Shown here piece after piece: positions 4,199-19,939 of a stretch of 20,127 nt of DNA. The position numbers and the translations under genes were made by a program. Below the pieces are notes generated by a model, which was given only the letters and a program-made list of their open reading frames with translations, was not told where the DNA came from and searched no databases. Origin of the DNA: a virus; IMG/VR virus record IMGVR_UViG_3300025892_000210, positions 1-20,127 of that record, one strand, 5' to 3'. Each line of letters begins with the position of its first letter. Positions within the stretch are counted from its first letter, which is position 1.

Positions 4199-4570
4199 AT
4201 GGCCACTCCATTAAATCAGTTTAAAACTAAAACCTATATCATACAGGATAAAGATGCTACCGAAGCAGTAAAAGCAAGGGGAACTGATGTGGTATATACA
4301 GTTCCCGCAGGTGTTTCTGCGATTATTTTGATGGCACAGATATCGAATATTGCGAATGACGCAACTTATGATGTCAACTTTGTCCACCATGATGTAGGAA
4401 CCGACACTAGCACTTACCTCGTTAAAGAATTTGGTGTTCAATCGAACGATGCAGTATCTCCTTTAACAGGAAAGTTAGTAGTTCAAGAAGGCAATCAGAT
4501 TGCTATTTGGGCAGATCAAGCAGATAAACTCGAACTCACATTGAGTTTTTTGGAATCATTAAATGGCTAG
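4199..4570 (+). CDS. Small beta-rich virion structural protein
   Basis: This gene encodes 123 residues. It starts at an ATG abutting the previous stop, with a good ribosome site, GAGGGA at 4187-4192, six bases upstream. The sequence alternates short hydrophobic strands and loops (VVYTVPAGVSAIILMAQISN, TSTYLVKEFGV, TGKLVVQEGNQIAIWA, LELTLSFLESL), which suggests a single beta-sandwich or jelly-roll. It has no signal peptide or membrane segment. It resembles small virion proteins that I recall beside fibre genes in marine T4-like phages, but I cannot name a T4 counterpart. Lying between two giant fibre genes and overlapping the second by eight bases, it may be a fibre-associated cap, adaptor or assembly partner; that role is inferred from position only. 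Confidence 0.75.
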   Translation: MATPLNQFKTKTYIIQDKDATEAVKARGTDVVYTVPAGVSAIILMAQISNIANDATYDVNFVHHDVGTDTSTYLVKEFGVQSNDAVSPLTGKLVVQEGNQIAIWADQADKLELTLSFLESLNG

Positions 4571-7500
4571 AAGACTTATATCGTTAGCAGGTAAAGTAGT
4601 TAGAAAATCGGCAGGGGATTTAGATGCCGATCGTTATCTTTATCTGTCGTTAGATCAGGCAGAACCCAACCCAGGTAATCCTGACAGCGATAATTCGTTG
4701 TTCTTTTCGAACGCGGATGGTACCCGTGGGTTTACTAAAAGACCCAAGGTTAATGGTCTAGCATTCGGAGATGGAAAATTACCAGAAGCAGGAGCAGATG
4801 ATGATTATGCTCTTATTCTAAATACGAACCCTACTGTTGCTGGAGATGACAGTGTAGGATTTCGTAAACTAGGCGATTTAGCATTTACTAACGAATCAGA
4901 AATTACTCTGCAATCTGTTACTGAAACCGGAAATACAACTACCGAAGGTATAGTCGTTAATGCTTTACCGGGTGGAGGATCGTTTTCGGGTAACAACTCT
5001 AACACTTACGGTGTAGAAATTAATGGGTTTACTGGGCAGTCTCCCCAACAAGCACTCTTTATCGGTGACGGTACTAATTCATTAATTGAAGGTGATTTAC
5101 AAATCACTGGTGCTTTCAACATTAACACAACAGATGGGGACGTTAGTGGTCCTGGGATTGTCGGTTTAAACAGCATACAACTGCTTGTGATGGACAGCGC
5201 AAATGCGCCAATTCCATATAAAATTGGTAAAAGAGATTTTAACTTTACTGCTTTTGATCCTCCTACTTTAAGAGAAGTCACTGAATTTACAATCGCATCG
5301 GGTGATGCAGCGAGCACCTTTACAAGTGGTGCAACTACACCTAATGGCATTAGAGCAAAATTTTTCAAATCTGATACATTACAAAATAGAACTTCTAATG
5401 ATGCTGGTGGTATATTAGACGGTAGCGTACAACAGTATAGAAAAGCATTAGTAGTCGATACTACTGCTGATTCAATAGGTTACAGAAACCTTACTGAACT
5501 TGCTTTGTTTGATAGTTCTACAACTGCTATTAATGTTCCTCAAATCTTTGTTAAAGATCCTGGAGTAGGAGACATATCACAGATCAGCAATACGATTCCG
5601 TTGGTCTTCCAAGATTCTGTTACTAAAGAATATAAAATTTTAGACATTAATGTTGTCAACCTTGACGAGACTTTTGAAACCCTTCACTCTGTTTCAGGAA
5701 GAACAGAGACTGGTTTTGATCAAGGTGAAACAGGTAACCCTGTTATATTCAGCAACACAGTAAAACTTCGTGGCAATACCGGCGATCAAGCATTAGCATC
5801 AAAAACTTCGAACACAGTTATTGTTGCTGACTATGGTTTGACAAACGACAGTGCTTTCGTCGGTGTCAGACTTGCTGAAGATATTGCGTTTAACGATAGT
5901 CTGATTAATCTAAATTTCGTTTTAAGCAGAGGAGACTCTACTAACCTTGCTGCTAATTTGGGTGGACCAGTCCGATTAATAAACAACGACTCCAAAGGAT
6001 TCATTTCGGGACAACCAACCGTTGTTGCTATTCGTTCTAATGACAGTGTTGGTTTCGTTACATTAGATCAAATTGCTTTTACCGGAGAAGAAACCTACGG
6101 TCTTTTTGAAACCGTAGAACTTAATGATAGTGCTGATAAACCAATCAAGGTTGGTGGATTAGTTATAAGACCAACGAGTGCTAGATCTGGCACAGAAGCA
6201 ATAGCAATCGATTCAGATTTATTAGGATCTTCTAACACTGTCAATCAGTTTTTAGTATACGAAAAAACTCTTGGTAGTTCAACTCCTGGTAAAGTAATTC
6301 TTCGTGAACTTGACAACAATGTTCTCGATGGTGATGACACAACACTTCAAACCGCAACCGAGCGCGGAAGAACTACTACGTTAGAAATTATCGCGCAAGG
6401 TTTTGTGGGGGATAGTGCTACCGTCCAAAACCTAGAAGCAACTACTCAGGCAACTCTTGCAAGCGCAAGCGTTACAGACTTGACCACGGATCGTGTAGTG
6501 TTCTCTGGTGCTGCTGGCGAACTCGAAGACGATGCTAATCTTACTTTCGACGGAACATCACTTCAAGTTGGTGTAAATCTTAACGTAGATGGTATTACAA
6601 CATTAGACTCAACTTCGATAGTTGGAACACTTGATGTCGAGGGAGTAACGAATCTTGACTCTACTTCAATAGTAGGAACACTTGATGTCGATGGTATTAC
6701 AACATTAGACTCAACTTCGATAGTTGGAGGATTTGATGTAACGGGAGAAACTACTCTCGATAAAACAACTATTGACGGTTTACTTGATGCTAATGCTGGC
6801 ATCGATGCTTCATCAGTTAAAGTAGAAGATTTAACCAGTGGTCGGGTGGTCATTGCTGGAACTAATGGTGAATTAGAAGACGATGCTGACTTAACGTTTA
6901 GTAATACCACATTAACTGCCACCAATATTAATGTCACAACGGATCTTGATGTTGGTGGTATTACAACATTAGATTCTACTTCAATAGTAGGAACACTTGA
7001 TGTTGATGGTATTACAACATTAGACTCTACCACAATAGTAGGAGCGGTAAATCTAACTGGACTGATAGGTACTGAATCATTAGAAGTATTAACAATCGAT
7101 GGTTCTAATGAAGTTGCTCGAAGAACAGTTGAATCTACTGCTTTTACAGGCGAAACATTAACTACTGTCACAGATCCTACGAGACCTGTTGGATATGATG
7201 TCACCTCAACACCATTGTATTTAAATGGTGGTATCTCTCTCGCAGCAAACGCAACGGACACACAAGCAACATATAAACTGTTGAATCTCGGATCAGGTGT
7301 ATCGGGAGACAGTGTAGAATTTTTAGAAGTTGATGCTTCAATCCTTGATGGGTCTGCTTTGGGATTAAACGAAGTATTGACAGTTGGTAATACTTCGAAT
7401 TTAGATATTCTTTTAGGCGGCACTTCTGCGATAACTGCCGATAGTGCTACTTTTGCGTCTAATTTGAGTGTCGGTACCCAAGCAACATTAGCAAGTGCAG

Positions 7501-10500
7501 CAGTGAGCGATCTGACAGATAATCGGGTAGTGATCGCAGGAACTTCTGGTGAATTAGAAGACGATGCCAACTTCACTTTCGATGGAACTATTTTAAACTT
7601 AGTTGCTGATTTTGATGTCTCGGGTATATCCACATTTGATTCTGTCACCGTAAGAAAAGATCTTGTAGTACTAGGAAACCTTCGAGTCGATGGTGCCACT
7701 ACAGTTATAAACAGTACAGAACTTTCGGTTGACGATAAAAATATTACTTTAGCAGATGGTGCAACACAACCGTCCGATGCCAATGGCGGCGGTATCACTT
7801 TGAATTTAGGAACTGGTGGCGCAGCTACTCTTTTATATTCGAATACAAACGACGATTGGACTTTTAACAAATCTATTCACACTGATAGTGATCTTGATGT
7901 GGGGAACAATCTTACGGTTGTTGGTAGTACTACATTAGATTCCACCACGATTGATGCAACTAACGCAGGGTTGGTTGTTACAGGACTATCTGATCAAGGT
8001 ACCGAATTTACTATTGTAACTATTGCCGCAGACGGAACAGTAGGAACCCGCGAAGCATCTGCTTCTGCTTTCTCGAATCCGGATTTACAGAACGTTACCG
8101 ATGAAGGTTATGTTACAACCAGACCAATAGTTGCGTTGGGATTCAGTGGCGACTCTGCTACATTAGGAACCGCCAAAGTATCTGATTTAACTGCGACTAG
8201 AATAGTTTTAGCAGGAACAGACGGTGAGTTAGAAGATAATGGCAGTCTAACTTATTCAAATGATAGACTTAATACAAATAGGGCAAACATAGGTGCTGGT
8301 GGATTAACGGTAGGCACGACTAATTTATCAGATGCAGTATCAGATAATACTCTTATTTTAGGTCTTACTGCACTTGATAGTGTAGTAGATAGAACTCTTG
8401 GTAATATACTAGACATTGCTACGTTACAATATGTAACAGATCACGGTGCTTCTACTGATAACAAACTGACTTTGACGGGTGGGTTAAGACTTTCACCTGC
8501 TTTCAACGTAGACGACCAATTAACTTTATTAGGTTTGGTCGGAGATAGTGTAGTATCAACAGTAGTAGAAACAACTGCTCATACACCGTTAAATTATTTT
8601 ACGATAGACAAAGCATCAGAAACGGGTGCAGACACTTTATCGAGAAGACTTGATGTTACTAACGCTATTGATTTAGATGGTGGGTTTACTGCTGCATTAA
8701 CAAATCCCGGAACGCCAGCAGGACAGTTTGACGTTATTCGTCTTGCAGATGCTGGAGGAACCGATAGCGCATTTAGAGTCACTTTGCAAAGCGGTGCTAC
8801 CAAACCGTTAGAGGATTTTACTTGGGAGTTTGTTCTTAACAACGGAGACTCGACTGGTGCAGAAGATGTTTACATTAGAAACCAGTTTTATTTAAACAGA
8901 TCTTCTTTACCTACTTCATCGCCTTTTGATACAAGTCTTGTAGTTCCTGTATTTAATCCTACAAAACTTACTACGTTTGATAGTGTTGGTACACGAACAT
9001 TAGGGAATGCTGCTAATCAGAATACCGATTTTTGGACTCTCCAAGTAGTAACCGATAATTCGAATCAAACAATTGGCACAGAAGCATTTGCTACTACTAC
9101 AAGAAGTCTTAAAATTGATGGTCTTATCATCGACGGCATCAAAGATTTTAGCACACTTCCTGCCAAATATAATCCAGCAGGAGATGGTAATGCACTTTTC
9201 TTGGGACCACAGGATAGTGTGGGTTATCGTGACGTAGGGGCATTTGCTTTTAAAGATACCACTACGTTACAAGAAGTTACTACTGCTGTTTCTGGTGGTG
9301 ACAGCACGACTGCGTCAATCACTACGCACGGATTGACTATTAGAAACGCTGACGCTTTTTATGTGAAACAAGATTTTGGTTCTTGGCCATCTATTGCGGA
9401 TGTTGATGATGCGGTTATGTGGGACGTTAACACTGAGCAATTGACTGTAAGAAATCTTGCTCCTTCTGCTTTTGAGGTTCCGTCTTTACAAGATGTCACA
9501 ACAGCAGGAGATTCAACTAATATAAGATCTGTGTTTGCTGGTGGTATAGATTTTGATCTAGAAAATACAAATGGTCTGCCAATAATTACTGAACAAAATG
9601 TTATTGATAATGGTGTCGGTTATTATAATATGCTTCTCGTTCAAACCGGAGGAGCAGAATCAGGGGTAGTTAAACGTGGATCACAAGGCGTTGTTTCTAG
9701 ACTGACAGAACGAGATACTCTTCGCAGTGTAACTGATAGAGGGGCAAGTCTCAGTGCAGTTGGTGCAGACTCTGCAAGAGTTCCGCTTATTTTTAGCAAC
9801 TACCATATTAAATTTACTGGGTTACAAGATTCAGAAACCAGAGATACTCTTGTAGCAATTAATCCAAGTACTGGTCAAATTTCTAGAAGATCTGTTTCAA
9901 GTATCAATGCTAATGATACTTTGAGTGCTGTTACCGGACGAGGTAATAAAACTGCACTGAGACTTGGAACCACCGGAATAGAATTACAAAGAGGCGCATT
10001 TGCGGGTGCTACTGATACTACAGACGATCTAGCGGATTATGATTTGGTTCTGAGCACCGTTGGTGGAGTTAACAACTCCACTTTACTATCTGTTGATCGT
10101 GGTCAATTCGATAGCGACTTAAACGTAGATGGTATCACCACACTCGACTCAACGACGATTGATGGTAAACTACTGGTCAAGGTAGGAAACACCTTTCCAC
10201 AAACCGAAGATAGACTTTATATTGGAGGTAGTGGTTTAGATGGTGAAGATGCTTCCATTTATTTAGGTAATCACGGTGATGGTACTGGTTATGGTTGGAG
10301 ATTTTTTTATCAAGGAACTGGCTCCGCCAACCTCAATAAATTAATTATTAGATCTGAAAATCTTGGCAGTCCGGTTGATGCATTAACATTTACTCAAGAC
10401 GGTGTAGCAACATTTGATAGTACAATAATTGCCAGCGGCGGTATTGAGGGATTGACTCTAGCTAATGGTGGTATCAGTGGCACTAATTTTGATATTTCAG

Positions 10501-11747
10501 GCGTCAATGAGTTAGTCATCGCTGATCCCGGCGAAGGTATTAGATTTAGCAACAATGCTTCTGGAGATATTACCTTAGCGGTTGTGGATGATGCCTCTGA
10601 TAACATCTTAGCGGTTACTGGTGGTGATGATACAATATTCCAAACACCAAATTTAAACGTTATTGGTATCACCACACTAGACTCAACTGCGATAGATGCT
10701 GGTGTTAATGGTGATGGACTAACTATACCGAATCTTGGTACTGAAATTGCCAATACTGATGTACTGACTATCAATGGCGATGTCGTAAGTAAGACTGCTT
10801 TCAGTGATCTTTATCAAGTTCCAACTCTACAATTAGTAACTGACGAAGGGAGAGTTACTACTGAAGAGATACAAGCTCTTGGTTTTATAGGGGATTCTGC
10901 GAGTATTTTTTATCATGTACAGATTGATCCAGAAGATGGTTATCAGTTAAATTTAGGTAATGGTTTTAGAACCTTTGAAACCAGAGGATTCCCAACCAAC
11001 TCGCCAGTCACGCCTCGTACTGCTCTTACTGGAACTGGAGCAGATCAAGCATCGTTTGCTATTACCAGAACTAGTGCTGATGAGTTCCCTCCATATTTAA
11101 TTTTAGGTAAGTCACGTGGAACTGATAACAACACTCTTAACGATGTTAGAGTAAACAGTGGTGATGAATTAGGTCGTATTGTTTTCGCAGGTATTGATCA
11201 GACTGGAGCAGGTGGTAACTATTTTCCCGGTGTAGACATAAGAGCAGTGGTAAACGGTGCTCCCGGTGATGAGGATATGTATTCTGACCTCATAGTTATG
11301 CAGCACAATGCATTTGGCGATCAAGAAAGATTGTTGGTTGGACAAGGTGGTCTTACTCTTTATGATTATGGGTACCCGTTAACTGGCAGTCTTAGCACAC
11401 TTACTTTAAATCATCGAAGCGTCTCTGGAACGAGATCTCAACAACTTGCATTTAAAGCAGGTAATTCTATTGACTCAGATGCTGGCGTAGAAATGTCTGT
11501 AGTCAAGTCTATCGCAAGAGTAAGAACAAACGGTAGTGAAGAAGCAGATTTTGAGATCTCAACAGTGATTGGTGGAACCCTTGAAAGAAAACTTCACATT
11601 GATGCCGATCAGAGTGGCGAAAAGGTAATGGATGTTGAAAATGTAGATGCTTTGAAACTTACTACGGGTGTTGAATTCCGAGATGCCGCTGGCACAAATT
11701 TAGTTATTTACGATTCTGCTGGTGCAGTCCTCTGGGGCAATGTATAA
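4563..11747 (+). CDS. Giant repeat-built tail-fibre-like protein, 2394 residues
   Basis: The ATG lies inside the end of the preceding gene (8-base overlap) with only a weak GGAA at 4552-4555, which suggests translational coupling. The N-terminus (MARRLISLAGKVVRKSAG) is followed by four interleaved repeat families. These are: a module with AF...TLQxVTxxGxxTT at about residues 116, 594, 1175, 1288, 1491, 1568, 1641, 1719, 1787 and 2088; DLTxxRVVxAGTxGELEDDAxLTF with GELED at residues 652, 769, 996 and 1221; GITTLDST-type 17-residue units; and one INSTELSVDDKNITLADG domain near residues 1029-1110. Residues ~1875-1953 (GWRFFYQGTGSANLNKLIIR) and ~2180-2260 (SGDELGRIVFAGID) resemble distal fibre domains seen ahead of S74 chaperone domains. 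However, the protein ends in SAGAVLWGNV, with no chaperone domain visible. I infer an elongated, probably trimeric host-contact fibre. The final stop lies inside the downstream late promoter box. Confidence 0.85.
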   Translation: MARRLISLAGKVVRKSAGDLDADRYLYLSLDQAEPNPGNPDSDNSLFFSNADGTRGFTKRPKVNGLAFGDGKLPEAGADDDYALILNTNPTVAGDDSVGFRKLGDLAFTNESEITLQSVTETGNTTTEGIVVNALPGGGSFSGNNSNTYGVEINGFTGQSPQQALFIGDGTNSLIEGDLQITGAFNINTTDGDVSGPGIVGLNSIQLLVMDSANAPIPYKIGKRDFNFTAFDPPTLREVTEFTIASGDAASTFTSGATTPNGIRAKFFKSDTLQNRTSNDAGGILDGSVQQYRKALVVDTTADSIGYRNLTELALFDSSTTAINVPQIFVKDPGVGDISQISNTIPLVFQDSVTKEYKILDINVVNLDETFETLHSVSGRTETGFDQGETGNPVIFSNTVKLRGNTGDQALASKTSNTVIVADYGLTNDSAFVGVRLAEDIAFNDSLINLNFVLSRGDSTNLAANLGGPVRLINNDSKGFISGQPTVVAIRSNDSVGFVTLDQIAFTGEETYGLFETVELNDSADKPIKVGGLVIRPTSARSGTEAIAIDSDLLGSSNTVNQFLVYEKTLGSSTPGKVILRELDNNVLDGDDTTLQTATERGRTTTLEIIAQGFVGDSATVQNLEATTQATLASASVTDLTTDRVVFSGAAGELEDDANLTFDGTSLQVGVNLNVDGITTLDSTSIVGTLDVEGVTNLDSTSIVGTLDVDGITTLDSTSIVGGFDVTGETTLDKTTIDGLLDANAGIDASSVKVEDLTSGRVVIAGTNGELEDDADLTFSNTTLTATNINVTTDLDVGGITTLDSTSIVGTLDVDGITTLDSTTIVGAVNLTGLIGTESLEVLTIDGSNEVARRTVESTAFTGETLTTVTDPTRPVGYDVTSTPLYLNGGISLAANATDTQATYKLLNLGSGVSGDSVEFLEVDASILDGSALGLNEVLTVGNTSNLDILLGGTSAITADSATFASNLSVGTQATLASAAVSDLTDNRVVIAGTSGELEDDANFTFDGTILNLVADFDVSGISTFDSVTVRKDLVVLGNLRVDGATTVINSTELSVDDKNITLADGATQPSDANGGGITLNLGTGGAATLLYSNTNDDWTFNKSIHTDSDLDVGNNLTVVGSTTLDSTTIDATNAGLVVTGLSDQGTEFTIVTIAADGTVGTREASASAFSNPDLQNVTDEGYVTTRPIVALGFSGDSATLGTAKVSDLTATRIVLAGTDGELEDNGSLTYSNDRLNTNRANIGAGGLTVGTTNLSDAVSDNTLILGLTALDSVVDRTLGNILDIATLQYVTDHGASTDNKLTLTGGLRLSPAFNVDDQLTLLGLVGDSVVSTVVETTAHTPLNYFTIDKASETGADTLSRRLDVTNAIDLDGGFTAALTNPGTPAGQFDVIRLADAGGTDSAFRVTLQSGATKPLEDFTWEFVLNNGDSTGAEDVYIRNQFYLNRSSLPTSSPFDTSLVVPVFNPTKLTTFDSVGTRTLGNAANQNTDFWTLQVVTDNSNQTIGTEAFATTTRSLKIDGLIIDGIKDFSTLPAKYNPAGDGNALFLGPQDSVGYRDVGAFAFKDTTTLQEVTTAVSGGDSTTASITTHGLTIRNADAFYVKQDFGSWPSIADVDDAVMWDVNTEQLTVRNLAPSAFEVPSLQDVTTAGDSTNIRSVFAGGIDFDLENTNGLPIITEQNVIDNGVGYYNMLLVQTGGAESGVVKRGSQGVVSRLTERDTLRSVTDRGASLSAVGADSARVPLIFSNYHIKFTGLQDSETRDTLVAINPSTGQISRRSVSSINANDTLSAVTGRGNKTALRLGTTGIELQRGAFAGATDTTDDLADYDLVLSTVGGVNNSTLLSVDRGQFDSDLNVDGITTLDSTTIDGKLLVKVGNTFPQTEDRLYIGGSGLDGEDASIYLGNHGDGTGYGWRFFYQGTGSANLNKLIIRSENLGSPVDALTFTQDGVATFDSTIIASGGIEGLTLANGGISGTNFDISGVNELVIADPGEGIRFSNNASGDITLAVVDDASDNILAVTGGDDTIFQTPNLNVIGITTLDSTAIDAGVNGDGLTIPNLGTEIANTDVLTINGDVVSKTAFSDLYQVPTLQLVTDEGRVTTEEIQALGFIGDSASIFYHVQIDPEDGYQLNLGNGFRTFETRGFPTNSPVTPRTALTGTGADQASFAITRTSADEFPPYLILGKSRGTDNNTLNDVRVNSGDELGRIVFAGIDQTGAGGNYFPGVDIRAVVNGAPGDEDMYSDLIVMQHNAFGDQERLLVGQGGLTLYDYGYPLTGSLSTLTLNHRSVSGTRSQQLAFKAGNSIDSDAGVEMSVVKSIARVRTNGSEEADFEISTVIGGTLERKLHIDADQSGEKVMDVENVDALKLTTGVEFRDAAGTNLVIYDSAGAVLWGNV
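6579..6782 (+). repeat. Four tandem 51-base (17-residue) repeats, unit LDVDGITTLDSTSIVGT
   Basis: The units start at 6579, 6630, 6681 and 6732 in exact 51-base register and stay in frame. Units 1 and 3 share 39 identical bases (6588-6626 and 6690-6728); unit 4 has diverged to a GETTLDKT core. The period, with alternating hydrophobic residues and a DST turn, suits a beta-solenoid or triple beta-helix shaft. Confidence 0.9.
6945..7046 (+). repeat. Second pair of the 51-base repeat
   Basis: Two more units (start 6945 and 6996) follow a GELEDDA module. The stretch 6975-7027 matches 6660-6712 with a single mismatch (T for C at 7004), 315 bases or 105 codons apart. Looser copies of the GxxTxDST core occur near 7623, 7923, 10131, 10401 and 10665. 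The near identity over 53 bases, including third positions, indicates recent duplication or gene conversion. Confidence 0.85.
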
Positions 11748-11768: not shown

Positions 11769-12521
11769 ATGGCACAACCTAATTCCAGACAAACGTTGAT
11801 CGATCATTGCCTTCGAAGGTTAGGTGATCCTGTGATCGAAATAAATGTGGATGAAGATCAGATAGAAGATAAAGTCGATGATACTATTCAGTTGTATCAA
11901 GAGTTCCATAGTGATGCAACTTATCGTACTTATTTAAAACATTTGATTACGCAAACTGATGTCGATAACGGTTGGATTCCGATTTCGAGTGAGGTTTTAT
12001 ATATCTCACAACTGTTTCCTATTAATCCAACATTTTCTACTGTTAATATGTTTGATGTTAAATATCAAATGATGTTAAATAGTATGGGTGACTTTTTAAA
12101 TTTTGGTGGTGGGTTGTCTTACTACATTCAATTTGAACAGTACTTAGATTTTATGGATCAACTTCTTCACGGCAATCCGCAAACTTCTTGGTCTAGGCAT
12201 CAAGATCGTCTTTATATTTGGGGCGAATGGATCAATGATGATCTTAGGGTTGGTGATTACGTTGTTGCTGAAATATATTCTGCTATTGATCCGGATTCAT
12301 TTACTAGCGTCTATAATGATATGTTTGTAAAAAATTATCTCACTGCTTTAATTAAACAACAGTGGGGTATCAACATGTCTAAATTTGAAGGCATGCAGTT
12401 ACCCGGAGGTGTTACTGTTAATGCGCGACAAATGCTTGATGATGCTAATTCTGAATTAGAAAAGTTAGAAGAGAAGTTAAGAATCGAGCAAGAGTTACCG
12501 CCAGATTTCTTCGTAGGTTAA
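11769..12521 (+). CDS. gp13: Neck protein, T4 gp13 homologue (head completion)
   Basis: The product is 250 residues, somewhat shorter than T4 gp13 (about 309). In T4, gp13 and gp14 form the neck that seals the filled head and provides the tail attachment surface. The recognisable features are the acidic N-terminal segment after MAQPNSRQTLIDHCLRRLGD, then DDTIQLYQEFHSDATYRTYL, a central aromatic-rich MLNSMGDFLNFGGG region, a RLYIWGEW segment, and a C-terminal charged helix (about residues 225-244) ending in PPDFFVG. There is no export signal, as expected for a protein assembled in the cytoplasm. The start is set by ATG with AAAAGGT upstream. The gene follows a late promoter and is followed after three bases by gp14, the T4 order. 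Base composition is more AT-rich than the fibre gene before it. Confidence 0.88.
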   Translation: MAQPNSRQTLIDHCLRRLGDPVIEINVDEDQIEDKVDDTIQLYQEFHSDATYRTYLKHLITQTDVDNGWIPISSEVLYISQLFPINPTFSTVNMFDVKYQMMLNSMGDFLNFGGGLSYYIQFEQYLDFMDQLLHGNPQTSWSRHQDRLYIWGEWINDDLRVGDYVVAEIYSAIDPDSFTSVYNDMFVKNYLTALIKQQWGINMSKFEGMQLPGGVTVNARQMLDDANSELEKLEEKLRIEQELPPDFFVG

Positions 12522-12524
12522 TAA

Positions 12525-13442
12525 ATGGCAACTAATAAGTATTTTTCACAAGGTGCCAGATCAGAGCAGGTCTTATACGAAGACTTGATAGTCGAGTCTT
12601 TAAAAATGTATGGGCAGGATGTTTATTACCTGCCTCGTGACTCTGTAAATCAAGACACTATCTTTGGCGATGAAACCTCTGCTGTTTTTGATGATGCATA
12701 TAAAATAGAAATGTACATTGAGAATGTAGAAGGGTTCGATGGCGAGGGTGACTTGTTCACGAAATTTGGTGTAGAGATTCGTGACCAAGCAACCTTTGTG
12801 GTTTCTCGGCGTAGATGGTTACAACAAGTAGCGCCATACGAACATGAGCAGGACACTAATAATTTTTTTAGACCGAGGGAAGGTGATCTAATATTTTTAC
12901 CTTTGTCCGGTTCTATATTTGAAATTCAAAAAACTTTTGATGAAACTCCTTTCTATCAATTGAAAAATTTACCCGTATTCAGATTGTCTTGTGAGTTGTT
13001 TGAATTTAGCGGAGAAAATTTTGATACTAATATTGCAGAAATTGATAACGTAGAAATATTTGGTCATCAATATCAAATGACTTTTACAGAAGTTTTTACA
13101 ACAGAATTTTTTGGAGAGAATGGTGCGTTTGAAGTTGGCGAAAGGGTTAGACAGATTCAAGGGGAAGGGGATTCTCAAATTTACATATATGCTGATGTTG
13201 TAGAATATGATGCATCCGTTTCATCTGCTAGAATATTAAGTATAACTAATATAAGTACTTCGGATGGTTTGTTTCATTCATTTAATACAGTAGATAGTGT
13301 GATAGGACTAGAAAGTAATGCTGTCGGAATACCTACGATTGTAAGTGAAAAAGAAATGAATCAAAATCAGAATGATATATTCGAAACTGTTGCAGACGGA
13401 ATTTTAGATTTCTCTGAGTCTAATCCGTTTGGAGATCCTTAA
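12525..13442 (+). CDS. gp14: Neck protein, T4 gp14 homologue
   Basis: The product has 305 residues (T4 gp14 is about 256) and is the expected partner of gp13 in the neck. The N-terminus (MATNKYFSQGARSEQVLYED), the LKMYGQDVYYLPRDSVNQD stretch, and a later EIRDQATFVVSRRRW segment are typical of gp14 proteins of marine T4-like phages as I know them. FRPREGDLIFLPLSG and the following EIQKTF region suit the conserved beta-rich core, and residues ~215-275 may account for the extra length. The AGG at 12515-12517 is seven bases before the ATG. The stop overlaps the next start as TAATG at 13440-13444, so translation of gp15 is probably coupled. The gene is very AT-rich (15 G or C of 60 bases at 13021-13080 by hand count). 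Confidence 0.88.
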   Translation: MATNKYFSQGARSEQVLYEDLIVESLKMYGQDVYYLPRDSVNQDTIFGDETSAVFDDAYKIEMYIENVEGFDGEGDLFTKFGVEIRDQATFVVSRRRWLQQVAPYEHEQDTNNFFRPREGDLIFLPLSGSIFEIQKTFDETPFYQLKNLPVFRLSCELFEFSGENFDTNIAEIDNVEIFGHQYQMTFTEVFTTEFFGENGAFEVGERVRQIQGEGDSQIYIYADVVEYDASVSSARILSITNISTSDGLFHSFNTVDSVIGLESNAVGIPTIVSEKEMNQNQNDIFETVADGILDFSESNPFGDP

Positions 13443-15403
13443 TGTTAACTAATTGGTTTTATCACGAAAGAATTCGAAAGTCTGTTGCTGTTTTCGGTTC
13501 GTTGTTTAATAACATTTATGTTGTTAGACATAATTCTGCGGGTGAAATTATTAACCAAACCAAGGTTCCTTTGTCTTATGCACCTCGCCGTGATTTTATT
13601 GACAGAATCGCAGGGATGGAAGTGGGTGAAGAACAAGAAAGACAAATTGCTATTAAGTTACCAAGAATGTCATTTGAAATTCTTGCTATTCAATATGATG
13701 CTCAACGGCAATTGTCTAAGGTGGGAAAACGAACTATTGCCGACACTACTGATAGTGGGCGAGCAAGAAGGATGTATAACCCCGTTCCGTACAATTTACA
13801 ATTTCAATTAAACGTATATGCAAGAAGTCAAGATGATGCGCTTCAAGTTGTCGAACAAATTATACCTTTTTTCACACCTCAATATACAGTATCTGTTAAA
13901 CCACTAGAAGGATATGATGTCACAGAAGATACTCCTATAAGATTAGACGGTGTGGTTATGCAGGATGACTACGAGGGAGCAATCGAAACCCGTAGAACTA
14001 TCATCTACACACTAGATTTTGAAATGAAAATTAATATGTATAAAGTTGTTGAATCTGCTTCTGCTATTATTAGAACAGTAGAAACTAATTTTCTCGATTT
14101 CGATACAGGCGGTTTGCTTGCATTCTGTAAAGTCGAATCCAATATTCTTTCAGGAGACAGTGCTAGTCTTCCTGGTAACATACTAGAAGATTCAGGACAA
14201 ACTGCAACTAACACCTTATCATTAGTGAATACACTAAATGACATACAGGGTTATGAAATAACTACTTCTCCGGAGTTTGGTACTGCGGCGGTTGACTCAG
14301 ACGGTACATGGATCTACACACCTAACCCAGATGCTTATGGACCTGATAGTTTTGTCATTGGTGTTGATGTTGGTCAAAATGTTGTAGAACAAATTAGCAT
14401 TACCGTTAATGGACCTTCTAATGCTGGTGTGGATGATGCAATTGATGACACCTTCTCGTTAGATTACTCTGGCAGTGAAACAATTACTATGAATGTTTCT
14501 AGTAACGATCTGTTCGAAACTACTGGTGACATCACCCACGTTGTGGAAGATCAACCACCTTCTGGGCAAGGTACGGTTACACTTATCGATGCGCTTGCAG
14601 GAACATTCTTGTATACACCTCCTGCGGCACCATTCAGTGGCACCGTGGTTTGGAGATATCGAGCAATACCAGATGGTGCAGAGAACTCAGCAGAAGTGGG
14701 CGAAGTTACGATCACGGTTACAGACACTAGTAATATAGATCCCAACTTTGCTAACGTAGTATTCTTAGTTAATGCAGTTGATGGTGAGAGTAGTCCTACA
14801 ACATACGCAAGTGATGCTTCTACTTTTAATAATTCACTAGTCACAGTTAATGGTGTCCATGTGGAAGCGGGATTGACTACATTATTCCAAGCAAAGTCAA
14901 TGGAAGGAAATGGCACTAGTGGCAGAATTGAAAGTACGTTCACAGGCACAGGCGGAGTATTAGGTGCTGGTGATTTCACCATGGAAGGGTGGTTTTACAC
15001 GTTACAGTCAGGTAACTACGAGATGGCAACCACCCATTCAACTAACGGGGTGAATGACGGTTTAGGGTTAGAACAAATCGCAGTTACTCACGAAGTAAGA
15101 GTGGTTAGAGGATTTAGTAATTTTGATACTTCTGGAACTCCCTTAAATCTTAACGCATGGAATCACGTAGCAGTAACACGAGAAGGCACTGACCTAAGAA
15201 TTTTTGTCAACGGTGTTCTGGGACGTACTGAAACGAACGATACTCAAGACTATAGTTCAAACTTTTTACAAATAATGGATGCAACACGTAATGCGTCAGG
15301 CATTGCCTGGGGAGGATTCATTGAAGATTTTAGAATCACAAAAGGTGTCGCACGATATACTTCTAACTTCGCTGTTCCAACACAAGCATTTCCAACGGCA
15401 TAA
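13442..15403 (+). CDS. gp15: Tail sheath terminator/stabiliser, T4 gp15 homologue, with Ig-like and LamG-like C-terminal extension
   Basis: Residues 1 to ~220 match gp15, the hexamer that caps the tail tube and sheath and joins the tail to the neck: FYHERIRKSVAVFGSLFNNI at the start, KVPLSYAPRRDF, KLPRMSFEILAIQYDAQRQL, RMYNPVPYNLQFQLNVYARS and VEQIIPFFTPQYTVSV. These align in order with T4 gp15 (for example its YNPSPIKMIYELSIF and VEQILPYFQPHF). T4 gp15 is 272 residues; this protein is 653. The extra part comprises two Ig/cadherin-like domains (~236-327, with GTWIYTPNPDAYGPDSF; ~330-430, with GTFLYTPP) and a LamG/concanavalin-like domain (~438-653, with FTMEGWFY, AWNHVAVTREGTDLRIFVNG and FIEDFRITKGVARYTSNF). 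I infer a glycan-binding or decorative element displayed at the neck. The reading frame is continuous. GC content rises sharply at the junction. GGAG at 13431-13434 precedes the start. Confidence 0.88.
   Translation: MLTNWFYHERIRKSVAVFGSLFNNIYVVRHNSAGEIINQTKVPLSYAPRRDFIDRIAGMEVGEEQERQIAIKLPRMSFEILAIQYDAQRQLSKVGKRTIADTTDSGRARRMYNPVPYNLQFQLNVYARSQDDALQVVEQIIPFFTPQYTVSVKPLEGYDVTEDTPIRLDGVVMQDDYEGAIETRRTIIYTLDFEMKINMYKVVESASAIIRTVETNFLDFDTGGLLAFCKVESNILSGDSASLPGNILEDSGQTATNTLSLVNTLNDIQGYEITTSPEFGTAAVDSDGTWIYTPNPDAYGPDSFVIGVDVGQNVVEQISITVNGPSNAGVDDAIDDTFSLDYSGSETITMNVSSNDLFETTGDITHVVEDQPPSGQGTVTLIDALAGTFLYTPPAAPFSGTVVWRYRAIPDGAENSAEVGEVTITVTDTSNIDPNFANVVFLVNAVDGESSPTTYASDASTFNNSLVTVNGVHVEAGLTTLFQAKSMEGNGTSGRIESTFTGTGGVLGAGDFTMEGWFYTLQSGNYEMATTHSTNGVNDGLGLEQIAVTHEVRVVRGFSNFDTSGTPLNLNAWNHVAVTREGTDLRIFVNGVLGRTETNDTQDYSSNFLQIMDATRNASGIAWGGFIEDFRITKGVARYTSNFAVPTQAFPTA
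14146..15400 (+). other. Acquired adhesin-type module inside the gp15 gene
   Basis: This stretch encodes the two Ig-like domains and the LamG-like domain. Hand counts of 60-base samples give about 25-28% GC before it (13021, 13501, 13981 and 14041), 50-52% inside it (14281, 14521 and 15001), and 32% after it (15481 and 15781). The composition block matches the protein-domain boundary, supporting separate ancestry from the gp15 core. No flanking repeats or recombinase remnants are visible. Confidence 0.6.
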
Positions 15404-15412: not shown

Positions 15413-18400
15413 ATGGCACACGATAACTTCATAGACAAGAGAAGACGTAAATTAAATTTACGGGACGTTCATATCGAAAATGTTCTACCTGAACATTTTG
15501 CCTCGTCTTATCCAAAATTTATTACTTTGCTCGAAAAATATTACGAGTGGCAAAATCAATATGATGCAACAGAATTATTAAACCATCTTTTCCTTGCTCG
15601 TGATATTACAGAGACTGATATCACACTTTTAAATTTCATAGAAGACGAATTGCTGTTAGGCGGAAGTTATTTTGAAGGGTCAGGAGACAAACGTGCTGCT
15701 GCTAATTTTTCAAGTGTGTTGTTTAGAGCAAAAGGTTCTAAGTACTCTATCGAATGGTTTTTCAGATCTTTTTTTGATATCGATCCAGAAGTTATTTACA
15801 CAAAAGAAAACATTTTTCTTATAGCAGACGATAACAATCCGTTATCTTTGATATCTAAAATTGGTCCATCTTCTTTAAGATTTCTTACCAACGATAAGTT
15901 ATACCAAACATTTGCTATACTTGTTCGTGCTGGTATACCTGTAAATCAATGGAAAAATTTATTCAAACTATTTGTTCATCCTGCTGGTATGTATTTGGGT
16001 GGAGAGGTGTTACTCGAAAGTAATGCGGATCTAAATCTAACTTCTCAGAGTTCTGGTGAAACAACTTCGCTAAATTCTCCGGTAATTACTTTAATTCCTT
16101 CATACGAACCAGTTCCCGAAGGTCTTACAGTTAATTATGTAGTGGGAACAGGAACTTCTTTAAATGGTCTAGGAGCACCAGAACAAACATATCTTTATCC
16201 TGGAACTTATAAATGGTATTTAGAACACGTAACGACAGTTGATTCTGATTTTGTGACAATTCCTCCTCAATTAGTCACTGCAACTCCTAGTATACAAGCA
16301 GGGAATCCAGCAACCGAAGGCGATATTACGCTTACTCTAAACAGTGTCAGTGCTGATTGGATTGGATATGATATTACTGGTTTAGGAATTTATAGAGGAT
16401 CGACTATTATCAATGTAATTGGTGCACCAACTAACCAAATAACTTTGTCGAATCCTATCACACAGGATCTTCCTGCTTTGACAGAATTTGAAGTACTAGG
16501 TGGGTGGCAAGATTTAGAGGTAGGTGTTCAAACAGAATTACCGATAGCAGACCCTGTAAATTCAGGTCCCGGAAATGTGCCAGGTAAAGTTTATGATACT
16601 CCGACATCTGGGAGTTTTAATTTTACTATTGCAAACGACTTTTTCTTAAATGCTGAAGGTTTAGAACAATACAATATCATTATTAGAGATTGGTGCAATG
16701 CGCCTTACAGAAAATTAATTTTTAATGTTGAATATAATATTGCTGATGTTCATTACATTGTCCAGACTAGTTCAGTTAACGAAACAGGAACTGCTCAAAC
16801 TATTACTATAAACGGAACCAATTTACCTGATGGTGATATAAATTACTACTTAGCAGACGCAACTACTGCTACTGGTTCATCTTTAAGTCTTGATGCCGCA
16901 TTAACTGCTGATCCTGGTACAGATCAAACTGGTTTTGGTGTTGGTGGGATTGGGTATAATAATGGATATGGTGATTGGGACGCGGCACAAACAAATGTTT
17001 TCGGTTTCAATCAACGACAAACAATTACAGTATCAGGAAACACCGCTTCTTTTGATGTTTATCCTAGAAAAGATTTTATTACCGATAGCGGTGGTGGTCA
17101 AACGTTCAGGGTTTTCTTGACGGGTCCTGCTACTTATAGTGATTATCATGCTGATCCTAATAATGTAGAATTGTTAGCATATCTCAACCCAAGCAATACA
17201 CAAGAACAGGGCGCGATTGTAACAATTAATGACACTTCTGTATATCCACAGTATGCTGTTTCTCAAAGTGATATTACTGAGGGCGGTTCTATTGTTCCGA
17301 CAATCACTGTAACGAACGAACACAATCCAAACGGTGATTATTTTTACAATCAAAGCACAGAAACACTTACCTCTGATGGAGTGCTTTGGGAAATCCTTGA
17401 TGACTTGGATGGAAGAATTACAACTACCAGCGGAAGAATTGCTTTTAACGCAGCATCACAAACACCTACATTATCTGCAACCACAGTAGATGGGTATTAT
17501 AGAGGAACACAAACCTCAACGATTAGAATTACAAACCACGATGTTCCTGCTCAAATATCTACGAATACTTTTGACATGGTTGATGCTGCTCCTAGTGCTG
17601 CTGTAATCACCGGACCTACTGCCATATCAGAAGGAGCATCTGGTTCGTTTGCATTTACTCGAAAGAATACTGCGCCCGGAACAAATTATTATTGGTGGGT
17701 TACTGGGGCAGAAGACGAAGATTTTGCCTCTGTTCCAAGGACAGGTTCACGATCAACCTTGACAGTAGGCACAACTGCTGCTAGTATTACTGCTGGCGGC
17801 GATACCATGATCATGACATCCACCATGGATCTTACTGCTGTCTTAGATCAACTTCCTCCAGAAGGCACACAAGCATTCGTAGTGAACGTTTCAGATACTG
17901 TTGGCGGTGCCGCGATTGCAACCTTCAACTCTTCGATCACTGATGTTGTTCCTGTATACACAGTTCTGACTTCGGCAGGATCATACACAGAAGGTAACAC
18001 TGTTGTTATTGGTTTGGATGTTACCAACTCTGTCGGAGAAAATGTAGACTACGCAATTGAAGATGATGGCACCGGAAGATACAGTGTTGCTGGCGGAACT
18101 TTCATCTGGGGCGGAACAAGTTATGCAAATCTAAATCTTCCTACAACTGTTCTTGCAACGGAAGAGGGGACTCAGACTATCACCATTACGGTTACAGGTC
18201 AGAGCACAGGAATACAAGATACAGTTGAATTCGATTTGACAGACCTTGTTCCTACATATGGATTGACTATTGCCTCACCTGTAACGGAAGGCAATGACAT
18301 AACACTAGATTTGAGTGTAACCAATTCTGTTGGCGAAACCGTTAGTTGGGCATTGACCGGTGATTCTCAAGGACGTGCTGGTGCTTCGAGTGGTGACTTT

Positions 18401-19939
18401 ACCTCACCAACCTATGCAAACGTTGTTGTCACTACAACAGAAGACGCAGGATTTGTTGGTCCCGAAGTTTGGACGTTCACGGTTACCGGTGATGACAGTG
18501 GTCAAACCGCACAACAAACAGTTACCGTCAATGAAGCAGGAATAGTAAGAACTAATTTAATCGACATGGTTGCTACAACCGTAACAGAAGGCGATGGTTA
18601 CAGTTTCACTGTCACTCAAACATTACAGAACACCGCCACTTATGCGGATTTTGCATATGAGATTACTGGTGATGCACGTGCTAATGTTGGATCGACTACT
18701 ATTACTGCTGCTACATTTGCGTCTAATAGTGGTGTGGTCACAATCAGTCCTACCACGACTTCTAGTGATGTTTATGAAGGTCCACAGACGATTACAATTT
18801 CTGGAACTGGAACAAGTGATACGTTTAGTCTTGTAGATGCTGCAACTGTTTACAATGCTGGATCGTTCAATGTATCAAGTATTGCAGAACAAGGCGGTGT
18901 TGCTAGGTTCACCCTTTCGGGCACCAATATTCCAAACGGTACTCTTGTTCCCTATACAATTACAGGTGTTCAAGCAGCAGATATTGATGTAGCATTGACT
19001 GGAAACATTACAATGGGTGGCAGTAACAGTGGGTTTATTGATGTCACTGCTGTCTATGATAATGTTGCGATTGAAAACGAAACTCTAACTTTGACTGCGG
19101 GTGGTCAATCCGATACGGTTGATATTACTGATGCTGTTCCTACTGTTACTTACACTGCGTCAACCAATACACCGGTAACAGAAGGTTTCCCAATAGAATA
19201 TACTATCGTAGCAACGCAAGTAAACGGTGGTTCGTATGAAGATGTTACGGTTACAATTACGGGCACTGCTTCGGGTAGGGTCACCGATGGTACTTTTGCA
19301 ATCACCGCAGCAGAATTTACTTCGGGTAGCGGTACGGTAACAAAGAATTACAGTGTAATAAGCGATCCTGTATATCAAGGGGACGAAAATGTCACCATCG
19401 ATGCGGTTGGTGATACTTACGGTAATTCAGCACCGCAACAAACCGTGACTATTACAGATCAGGCAGCAGCAATCAATAGTGTCTCTGGTCCTGCTGAGAT
19501 TAATGATGGAGGAGCAACGACTTTGGTTGATCTTGGCGCAACAGTAAATGCTACTGCAAATTCCGGACCTGCACCTGGACCGGACAAAGCAGAAGTTACA
19601 TTTAGTTGGAACTCTCTATCAGACGGTGATTTCAGATTCACTGATACAAGCACCGGTTCCGGTAGTAGCAACCTTCCGATCGCCAGAACATGGTTGCTTG
19701 CAGGATCGTCAAGCGATTACGATATCAGATTCGATCTCGACGGTTCATCATCGGCATTATTTTCAGGCACTACCGGATCATGGTTAGACGCAAGCGGTAG
19801 TCATGTTTGGGTCTCGCGGGACGAATCACTTACGCAAGCAAATGGCAATGTGTTCGGCACTCTTAGTATAAGAGATGGCACAACACTAGATCTTTTAGAT
19901 GCCATAACTGTCACTATGACAGCAACTTATGAACAGTAA
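15413..19939 (+). CDS. Baseplate wedge gp7-like N-terminal domain fused to a long array of Calx-beta-like repeats
   Basis: The protein has 1508 residues. Residues 1-205 resemble the C-terminal part of T4 gp7. FITLLEKYYEWQNQ parallels its FEAFCEAYIQYL; DKRAAANFSSVLFRAKGSKY and the next WFFRSFF parallel its DKRDAVARFFESRSYDFYSTKG and YKFLFKVLYNEEVE; QWKNLFKLFVHPAGMYLGGE parallels its RWKSDVIRFVHPVGFGF. The large N-terminal part of T4 gp7 is absent. Residues ~206-442 are beta-rich linker domains. From ~443 onward run about nine beta-sandwich repeats, most spaced 97-120 residues. Their boundaries fall near 606, 723, 843, 943, 1040, 1141, 1239 and 1348, and carry a D(A/L/V)VPxY...VTEGxxxxxxxxxTNSVGE-like signature reminiscent of Calx-beta domains. 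I infer a wedge-anchored adhesin projecting from the baseplate. No clear ribosome site precedes the ATG; translation may be coupled to gp15 (nine-base gap). Confidence 0.75.
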   Translation: MAHDNFIDKRRRKLNLRDVHIENVLPEHFASSYPKFITLLEKYYEWQNQYDATELLNHLFLARDITETDITLLNFIEDELLLGGSYFEGSGDKRAAANFSSVLFRAKGSKYSIEWFFRSFFDIDPEVIYTKENIFLIADDNNPLSLISKIGPSSLRFLTNDKLYQTFAILVRAGIPVNQWKNLFKLFVHPAGMYLGGEVLLESNADLNLTSQSSGETTSLNSPVITLIPSYEPVPEGLTVNYVVGTGTSLNGLGAPEQTYLYPGTYKWYLEHVTTVDSDFVTIPPQLVTATPSIQAGNPATEGDITLTLNSVSADWIGYDITGLGIYRGSTIINVIGAPTNQITLSNPITQDLPALTEFEVLGGWQDLEVGVQTELPIADPVNSGPGNVPGKVYDTPTSGSFNFTIANDFFLNAEGLEQYNIIIRDWCNAPYRKLIFNVEYNIADVHYIVQTSSVNETGTAQTITINGTNLPDGDINYYLADATTATGSSLSLDAALTADPGTDQTGFGVGGIGYNNGYGDWDAAQTNVFGFNQRQTITVSGNTASFDVYPRKDFITDSGGGQTFRVFLTGPATYSDYHADPNNVELLAYLNPSNTQEQGAIVTINDTSVYPQYAVSQSDITEGGSIVPTITVTNEHNPNGDYFYNQSTETLTSDGVLWEILDDLDGRITTTSGRIAFNAASQTPTLSATTVDGYYRGTQTSTIRITNHDVPAQISTNTFDMVDAAPSAAVITGPTAISEGASGSFAFTRKNTAPGTNYYWWVTGAEDEDFASVPRTGSRSTLTVGTTAASITAGGDTMIMTSTMDLTAVLDQLPPEGTQAFVVNVSDTVGGAAIATFNSSITDVVPVYTVLTSAGSYTEGNTVVIGLDVTNSVGENVDYAIEDDGTGRYSVAGGTFIWGGTSYANLNLPTTVLATEEGTQTITITVTGQSTGIQDTVEFDLTDLVPTYGLTIASPVTEGNDITLDLSVTNSVGETVSWALTGDSQGRAGASSGDFTSPTYANVVVTTTEDAGFVGPEVWTFTVTGDDSGQTAQQTVTVNEAGIVRTNLIDMVATTVTEGDGYSFTVTQTLQNTATYADFAYEITGDARANVGSTTITAATFASNSGVVTISPTTTSSDVYEGPQTITISGTGTSDTFSLVDAATVYNAGSFNVSSIAEQGGVARFTLSGTNIPNGTLVPYTITGVQAADIDVALTGNITMGGSNSGFIDVTAVYDNVAIENETLTLTAGGQSDTVDITDAVPTVTYTASTNTPVTEGFPIEYTIVATQVNGGSYEDVTVTITGTASGRVTDGTFAITAAEFTSGSGTVTKNYSVISDPVYQGDENVTIDAVGDTYGNSAPQQTVTITDQAAAINSVSGPAEINDGGATTLVDLGATVNATANSGPAPGPDKAEVTFSWNSLSDGDFRFTDTSTGSGSSNLPIARTWLLAGSSSDYDIRFDLDGSSSALFSGTTGSWLDASGSHVWVSRDESLTQANGNVFGTLSIRDGTTLDLLDAITVTMTATYEQ
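17228..19936 (+). repeat. Array of eight Calx-beta/Ig-like protein repeats
   Basis: Repeat starts at nucleotides 17228, 17579, 17939, 18239, 18530, 18833, 19127 and 19454. Several begin at a (T/V/N)D-x(1-3)-P linker and then have an EG pair (ITEGGS, ISEGAS, YTEGNT, VTEGND, VTEGDG, VTEGFP). The units starting at 17939 and 18239 share VTNSVGE(N/T)V and a GR turn. DNA similarity is only moderate, so duplication is not recent. A probable earlier, more divergent unit starts near 16736 (VNETGTAQTITING). Confidence 0.75.

Follow-up and report, generated by a model that had tools for sequence, protein, structure and literature searches.

The window analyzed here, the whole 20,127-base IMG/VR virus record IMGVR_UViG_3300025892_000210, is probably a genome fragment. 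It encodes a gp15 tail (sheath) terminator in which a T4 gp15 core, two immunoglobulin (Ig)-like domains and a LamG tip are joined in one open frame. The architecture recurs in other contigs, its parts have predicted folds, its distal cassettes are exchanged between close relatives, and a second gp15 lineage has been extended by a different route. We put at roughly 60% the probability that in these phages the C-terminus of gp15 exposes an Ig stalk with an accessory adhesin at the neck; both display on the virion and binding of a ligand are what we infer.

A gp15 terminator extended by Ig-like and LamG domains

The 653-residue protein is read from a single open reading frame (ORF) on the plus strand that runs from the ATG at 13442 to the stop at 15403 (13442..15403), and was assigned by its ORF, Pfam and PHROG. 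Residues 1-218 (13442..14095) are the T4 gp15 core: Pfam family PF16724 (T4-gp15_tss) aligned with residues 6-218 (E value 1.5e-66; 224.5 bits versus a cut-off of 25), T4 gp15 PDB sequences matched residues 4-218 (E 2.4e-23 and 2.7e-23) and the modeled core matches the structure 4huh. The protein also matched PHROG 227, tail sheath stabilizer (E 9.8e-70). The core is followed by a junction, residues 219-236 (14096..14149), which upon alignment with relatives occupies the position of the C-terminal tail, with its PDSDYGF-like motif, of the unextended proteins. Ig/cadherin-like domain 1 (about residues 237-322; 14150..14407) was placed by Pfam, modeled strands and tandem cadherin matches; Big_9 matched two stretches of the protein (E 4.1e-9) and Cadherin_5 matched in the same region. 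Ig-like domain 2 (residues 331-431; 14432..14734) was recognized by its structural match to the decorating domains of phage neck collars. The last part (14729..15400) is a LamG or concanavalin A-like tip, an exchangeable cassette, defined by PF13385, its model, a match to the arabinanase AbnA and the exchange tract described below. Laminin_G_3 (PF13385) covered residues 505-634 (E 8.1e-13; 49.2 bits versus a cut-off of 27.6), and the LamG part is similar to portions of PHROG families that are of unassigned function or named baseplate wedge. Fibritin_C (PF07921) was absent from the five Pfam matches of the protein at E values up to 1.

Predicted structures and fold matches

AlphaFold modeling of the full-length protein used a 35-row alignment; a first, large alignment set LamG fragments against the gp15 core and was discarded. 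The full-length model shows the gp15 core and two domains of beta strands, partly to well resolved (10-residue means of 55-95 in the Ig part), Ig domain 1 with less certainty than Ig domain 2. Because homologues were too few, LamG was unresolved in this model (predicted local distance difference test score, pLDDT, about 25) and was therefore modeled separately from its own 29-row alignment. Alone it gave a jelly-roll fold with a pLDDT of 77.4 and a predicted template modeling score (pTM) of 0.82.

The core model matched T4 gp15 (4huh) with a VIA Z of 17.4 over 173 residues at a root mean square deviation (rmsd) of 3.8. Nearest to Ig domain 2 was the decorating domain of the Milano collar protein gp13 (8fxr, 8fwc; VIA Z 11.5, rmsd 1.8, 87 residues), and the collar of phage 7-7-1 gave a VIA Z of 11.1. 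Taken as a unit, the Ig tandem had weaker matches, at Z about 8-10 and rmsd mostly 8-15, with cadherins and bacterial adhesins. The top neighbor of the LamG model was AbnA (5hp6), of which domain 4 was covered (VIA Z 20.0, rmsd 2.6, 190 residues); matches to the LamG profile, among 30 sequences, include chains of an S-layer-domain protein, neurexin, AbnA, pappalysin and pentraxin. LamG matches to clostridial neurotoxin-type binding domains were not read as kinship to toxins, as the jelly-roll fold is common to them. A sequence-only reading of the window had proposed a gp15 core, two Ig-like domains and a LamG-like fold in one frame, and Pfam, the two AlphaFold models and the fold comparison bear this out. 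The structure prediction and fold search that it called for succeeded in part: the Ig domains were partly to well resolved at full length and the LamG jelly roll was obtained in isolation, but LamG was not resolved in the full-length model.

The extension recurs and ends in different ways

Scanning IMG/VR with the whole protein gave 21 loci. The full architecture was present in six contigs besides the window (L006, L007 and L011 at 99-100% identity, L008 and L009 at 87%, and L010 at 81%), which stand under six different IMG dataset numbers. L012, L013 and L014 keep the Ig stalk and have a different ending, and the remaining 12 loci match the LamG-containing C-terminal part only. Each of the eight contigs checked (L006 and L008-L014) has exactly one gp15, the fused one. 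In L007 (991-2925) the near-identical copy of the window protein has an in-frame loss of nine residues in Ig domain 2. The frame across 14100-14160, on whose continuity the sequence-only reading had staked the fusion, is open in eight of the nine contigs L006-L014, L014 being broken at the core/Ig junction.

Further surveys were made of up to 80 loci each, found via two to six short patterns and ranked in a manner that favors the query's own length; those made with the core, the Ig-extended protein and a lineage of 327-342 residues count listed matches only. With the core as query, 75 of the 80 listed loci were complete, 70 of them 252-284 residues long and five extended; of the five genes that run off their contig, three are visibly extended. 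With the Ig-extended query, 69 of the 80 listed genes were complete and 11 ran off the contig. Extended genes made up 64 of the 69, a figure that describes the composition of the retrieved set and not prevalence, several contigs resembling one virus in different samples. Forty-three of the 69 have two Ig domains only (416-433 residues), five have a LamG tip (644-653 residues), three a DUF285 (BspA-like) tip (625-636 residues) and four exceed 1000 residues with an FG-GAP-containing region of more than 600. Nine have smaller additions, seven a short tail (457-460 residues) and two a total length of 535 residues; the other five genes are core only (234-238 residues). In a different gp15 lineage all 79 complete genes listed had 327-342 residues, the range that this ranking favors.

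Pfam confirmed the kind of tip in three of three DUF285 genes, in four of four FG-GAP genes and, for LamG, in the window, L009 and L010. For tip-less genes, a few representatives were checked by Pfam for the two Ig domains. Pfam marked a single repeat in the FG-GAP tips, so a beta-propeller there is conjectural. The third region of the 535-residue form had no Pfam match, and the Ig part of L115 had no match in the phage collection at an E value of 0.01. Two contigs occur under two handles (L341 is the contig of L012, and L321 that of L116). The search of gp15 homologues that the sequence-only reading called for thus found the extension in full in six contigs and in some form in the great majority of complete genes retrieved with the Ig-extended query. 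The lectin of that reading is present in this window but is one of several tips, most complete genes of that set stopping after two Ig domains.

The break in L014 and five relatives that stop at the core/Ig border raised the suspicion of a programmed frameshift, which was rejected. No Ig domain in another frame was seen by eye in the printed translations of L355, L357, L358, L359 and L360, nor was a slippery site seen by eye in L014. For L359 the scan gave a match to query residue 371, which the by-eye frame check does not explain. The frame break of L014 was put down to an error or a lone pseudogene.

Exchange of tips between close relatives

Comparison of the window with its relatives showed cores that are far more diverged than tips. 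Identical four-fold sites numbered 18 of 49 in the core and 81 of 85 in the LamG tip for the window versus L010, 28 of 58 and 80 of 85 for the window versus L008, and 23 of 49 and 89 of 90 for L008 versus L010. Fisher tests gave p < 1e-7 in all nine comparisons, which were chosen ones. Between L009 and L010 the similar tract starts already inside Ig domain 2. Behind the tip the similarity drops once more: over its first three 30-codon blocks the next gene is 73-81% alike between the window and L009 or L010, opening at 80-81%, and 93, 69 and 76% alike between L009 and L010.

Other relatives differ in the kind of tip. L014 combines the core of L008 (97.1% nucleotide identity) with Ig domains closer to those of L010 (91.0% versus 76.3% to L008) and a DUF285 tip. 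L115 and L116 are 97.0% identical in gp14 and 96.5% (nucleotide) in the gp15 core, and, as far as the tip, the 30-codon blocks of their gp15 genes are each 83-100% alike; only L116 has the DUF285 tip. Their next genes are 93-100% alike in the first 11 blocks and dissimilar beyond. In the tree alignment the cores of L332 and L334 are identical, and just one of the two has a DUF285 tip.

A quick core tree was built from complete genes (217 rows reduced to 126) with the Shimodaira-Hasegawa-like approximate likelihood ratio test (SH-aLRT) as its only support measure. All 35 Ig-extended rows fall inside one 40-row group (SH-aLRT 97), the other five rows of which are core only. Tips are scattered within this group, L339 and L014 being sisters with unlike tips (SH-aLRT 91), and in the other lineage the four rows with DUF285 require four separate changes. 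By all these comparisons the gp15 tips behave as exchangeable cassettes.

Relatives of phage C48C1 show a second fusion route

L067 and its relatives contain a whole unextended gp15, including the tail motif, followed by a proline-rich and often (PE)n linker and then by DUF285 (BspA-like) repeats. The repeat part was 399 residues long in all seven cases measured. In the survey of this route (best 80 of 86), 78 loci comprised 14 complete fusions (673-696 residues), four partial fusions, three tip-only contigs and 57 unfused genes; L218 lacks a start and hence is outside the 14. Four linker-route proteins scanned with Pfam had no Ig domain. The contigs reach 160 kilobases (kb), and the four tested, including those of 137 and 160 kb, have a single gp15, the fused one. 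Over both routes, testing of 12 possibly incomplete contigs revealed no second gp15. DUF285 had no match outside the fused gp15 in the 137-kb and 160-kb contigs. Fibritin_C was absent from these two contigs and C48C1 (the control, ime09, was positive at 1.7e-35), and PF00124 (psbA family) was absent from the same three and the 45-kb L009 contig (the control, S-BM3, was positive).

Genes resembling terS, terL and the sheath gene come after the fused gp15, as in C48C1. In the 21 pairs formed by seven representatives, the tips were 94-100% identical in nucleotide sequence; between different groups the tips were 94-98% alike and the cores 67-78%. For L205 versus L208, identical four-fold sites numbered 20 of 59 in the core and 122 of 129 in the tip. 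L230 keeps the linker and the last three residues with the repeats gone, and looks as it would after loss of a cassette. In C48C1 gp15 is unfused and a separate gene encodes a 420-residue DUF285 protein that is 46% identical to the linker-route tip; no paper on this phage was found in the open literature. The DUF285 family has been acquired in two distinct gp15 lineages.

Separate DUF285 proteins were also seen behind core-only gp15 genes. L357 encodes one of 383 residues with a similar beginning (3794-4945) directly behind gp15, and in L360 an ORF of 929 residues or more, which shows the same repeats by eye, lies behind the core-only gp15.

Neighboring genes

The gene order gp13-gp14-gp15 is present in the window. 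A gp13-like head-tail adaptor (11769..12521, plus strand; phrog_211, E 9.2e-39) and a gp14-like neck protein (head closure Hc2; 12525..13442, plus strand; PF11649, E 4.4e-31; phrog_460, E 1.8e-79) precede the fused gp15. Behind it lies a gene for a 1508-residue protein with a baseplate-wedge-like N-terminus (15413..19939, plus strand; PF23786, E 2.6e-7), a homologue of which sits between gp15 and terS in L111, where terS and terL were named by eye from likeness to the genes of relatives. Compared with L009 per 30-codon block, the 1508-residue protein is a mosaic, 71-86% alike at its start, 52-70% in the middle and 88-100% over the last 60%.

The gene after gp15 varies in length and C-terminus among close contigs, encoding 425, 431 and 406 residues in L109 (9667-10944), L112 (13894-15189) and L111 (13852-15072), respectively. 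In L012/L113 the ORF behind the 1269-residue gp15 starts inside gp15 if the first start codon is used; MAHDNF downstream is probably the true start. Two large proteins are encoded upstream in the window. One of 1394 residues (14-4198) has a sub-threshold match in its C-terminal half (E 5.2e-4) to FG-GAP, the repeat family of the L012 tip, and one of 2394 residues (4563-11747) has no Pfam match and is encoded with short arrays of 51-base tandem repeats.

Interpretation and alternatives

We picture the gp15 core as still capping the sheath and tube as a ring, which by homology to T4 would have six copies. The two cadherin/Ig-like domains would form a short stalk leading the chain away from the ring, and the swappable distal module (LamG or, in relatives, DUF285 repeats, an FG-GAP-containing region or nothing) would be an accessory neck adhesin, its ligands probably being cell-surface or extracellular glycans. 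The scheme presumes that the extended protein is part of the virion, in six copies and pointing outward, that it binds a ligand and that adsorption benefits; the six neck arms, glycan binding and whisker-like role of the sequence-only reading are likewise presumed. That unlike tips have repeatedly been exchanged at one position raises the likelihood of a display or adhesion role. The finding, in a group of mostly uncultured T4-like phages, of an Ig stalk that sometimes ends in an exchangeable, adhesin-like tip suggests that the neck may offer an extra site for gripping surfaces. More tentatively, the terminator could be a general docking post: its six C-termini, on Ig stalks or linkers, would hold LamG, BspA-like or FG-GAP modules, and the grip of the neck could be changed by a cassette swap, independently of the baseplate fibers and without fibritin whiskers.

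Several observations speak against an adhesin at the neck. The full-length model is weak (mean pLDDT 58.8, pTM 0.34). The names LamG and DUF285 denote a fold or a family, and sugar binding is not a given for LamG folds. An adhesive tip is not essential, 43 of the 69 complete genes being tip-less. Among named phages gp15 was unfused, with 226-319 residues, in all 13 annotated ones examined (of 2381 records with a core match), and none of 2131 named records matched 80% of the window protein; in the unannotated AG-345-E15, gp15 has 337 residues. In the linker route terS, behind the tip, is itself 85-96% identical (nucleotide) between groups, so that the exchange tract is sharp at its upstream border only. 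The published systems add that gp80 of the A-1(L) neck fiber showed no host binding when assayed (PMC10966104) and that in XM1, E217 and Milano the terminator's C-terminal arm is bound into the sheath (PMC10457771, PMC10329688, PMC10491603); a stalk must therefore exit there without blocking the arm.

The Ig domains might instead clamp the head-tail joint like a collar, the tips being passengers or decoration with no role in binding. Such reinforcement would suit the many genes that have two Ig domains and no tip and the nearness of Ig domain 2 to the Milano and 7-7-1 collar domains; moreover, a stabilizing effect has been ascribed to the Milano collar (PMC10491603), and the Ig-like N-terminal domains of XM1 gp40 bind the neck and terminator rings and strengthen the joint (PMC10457771). 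We consider it unlikely as it leaves unexplained both the repeated exchange of unlike tips at one position and the second route, in whose scanned proteins Pfam found no Ig domain. The gain, loss and replacement of tips between close relatives (L115/L116, L332/L334 and L339/L014) resemble the turnover of receptor-binding domains, and the neck tip could be the main determinant of host range rather than an accessory. Such receptor switching proper seems quite unlikely given that tip-less genes are common and that the large mosaic tail protein at 15413-19939 in the same locus is a better candidate for primary recognition.

Recombination behind gp15 might also add in-frame cassettes that are merely tolerated, being cut off or never displayed. 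The clade does have further variable genes behind gp15, tips come and go and the frame of L014 is broken; however, an open extension, of up to 1269 residues, is kept in nearly all complete genes of the Ig-extended set, transferred tips remain full length and well conserved, and the same domain family was acquired by two separate gp15 lineages, making neutral accretion very improbable. An artefact of assembly or annotation, in the form of a chimeric contig or a missed stop, finds its one foothold in the L014 break at the junction and is hardly credible: the same architecture occurs at 81-100% identity in L006-L011 from six IMG datasets, and dozens of further contigs have related extensions. A chimeric assembly was rejected on the recurrence of the architecture in other contigs.

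If gp15 C-termini do display adhesins, then gp15, a conserved joint of T4-like phages treated as scaffold in the structural papers cited here, is a likely adhesin carrier in two lineages, and a host-interaction gene can hide under a PF16724 annotation. Cassette exchange visible between close environmental relatives makes this a testable case of neck-level attachment, with natural variant pairs in which the tip is present, absent or of another kind.

Comparison with known neck systems

The window protein shares with T4 gp15 (PF16724; 4huh, 4hud, 9mkb) the core fold, the gp13-gp14-gp15 order and the single copy per tested contig, and differs in about 435 further residues that make up the two Ig domains and the LamG tip. 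In T4, gp15 forms a hexamer and binds both gp3 and the last sheath ring (PMC3004832), and the C-terminal part of T4 gp14 touches gp15 residues 203-245 (PMC12270204). The window protein profile aligns to T4 gp15 as far as residue 229; therefore the stalk would begin near the gp14-gp15 contact zone. The six terminator C-termini of E217 reach outward to the sheath (PMC10329688); a stalk that points outward is therefore plausible.

Whiskers of T4 fibritin (wac) are likewise neck appendages. Older maps put a loop of fibritin at gp15 (PMC3004832), and recent work assigned the fibritin binding site to gp13 (PMC12270204). Fibritin differs in being a coiled-coil protein, and the window protein has no Fibritin_C match. 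Ig-like domains appended to phage structural proteins were reportedly described by Fraser et al. in 2006, and the window protein resembles these in carrying such a domain on a presumed virion protein. Binding to epithelia is known for Ig-like adhesins of gut phages (PMC13370021).

The sequence-only reading knew of no described case. No terminator fused to Ig or adhesin modules, or with an exchangeable tip, was found among the listed matches of a search of the open literature, but carbohydrate-binding modules on separate neck proteins are known (PMC6669499, PMC10966104). The collar spike gp40 of Vibrio phage XM1 has an Ig-like domain beside the terminator ring and a distal tailspike-like part, and host sensing was proposed for it; unlike the window protein, it is a separate trimeric protein docked on gp4/gp5 with no fusion (PMC10457771). 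The Milano gp13 and 7-7-1 collars share the neck location and the decorating domain matched by window Ig domain 2. The Milano collar has been likened to glycan-interacting proteins, and differs as a separate protein that forms a pentadecameric sheath-like collar without fibers (PMC10491603). The gp82-gp81-gp80 assembly of A-1(L) is a cyanophage neck fiber with a distal carbohydrate-binding module, made of separate proteins on the neck protein gp5 (PMC10966104). The neck passage structure (NPS) of lactococcal 936 and TP901-1 phages likewise combines a conserved neck anchor with variable C-terminal carbohydrate-binding modules, in several groups, and one such module bound host cells weakly; it is a separate siphophage collar protein with a BppU-like anchor, dispensable in TP901-1 (PMC6669499). 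Here, in contrast, the modules are fused to the terminator of T4-like myophages, in one ORF that contains the gp15 core and has gp15 as its N-terminus.

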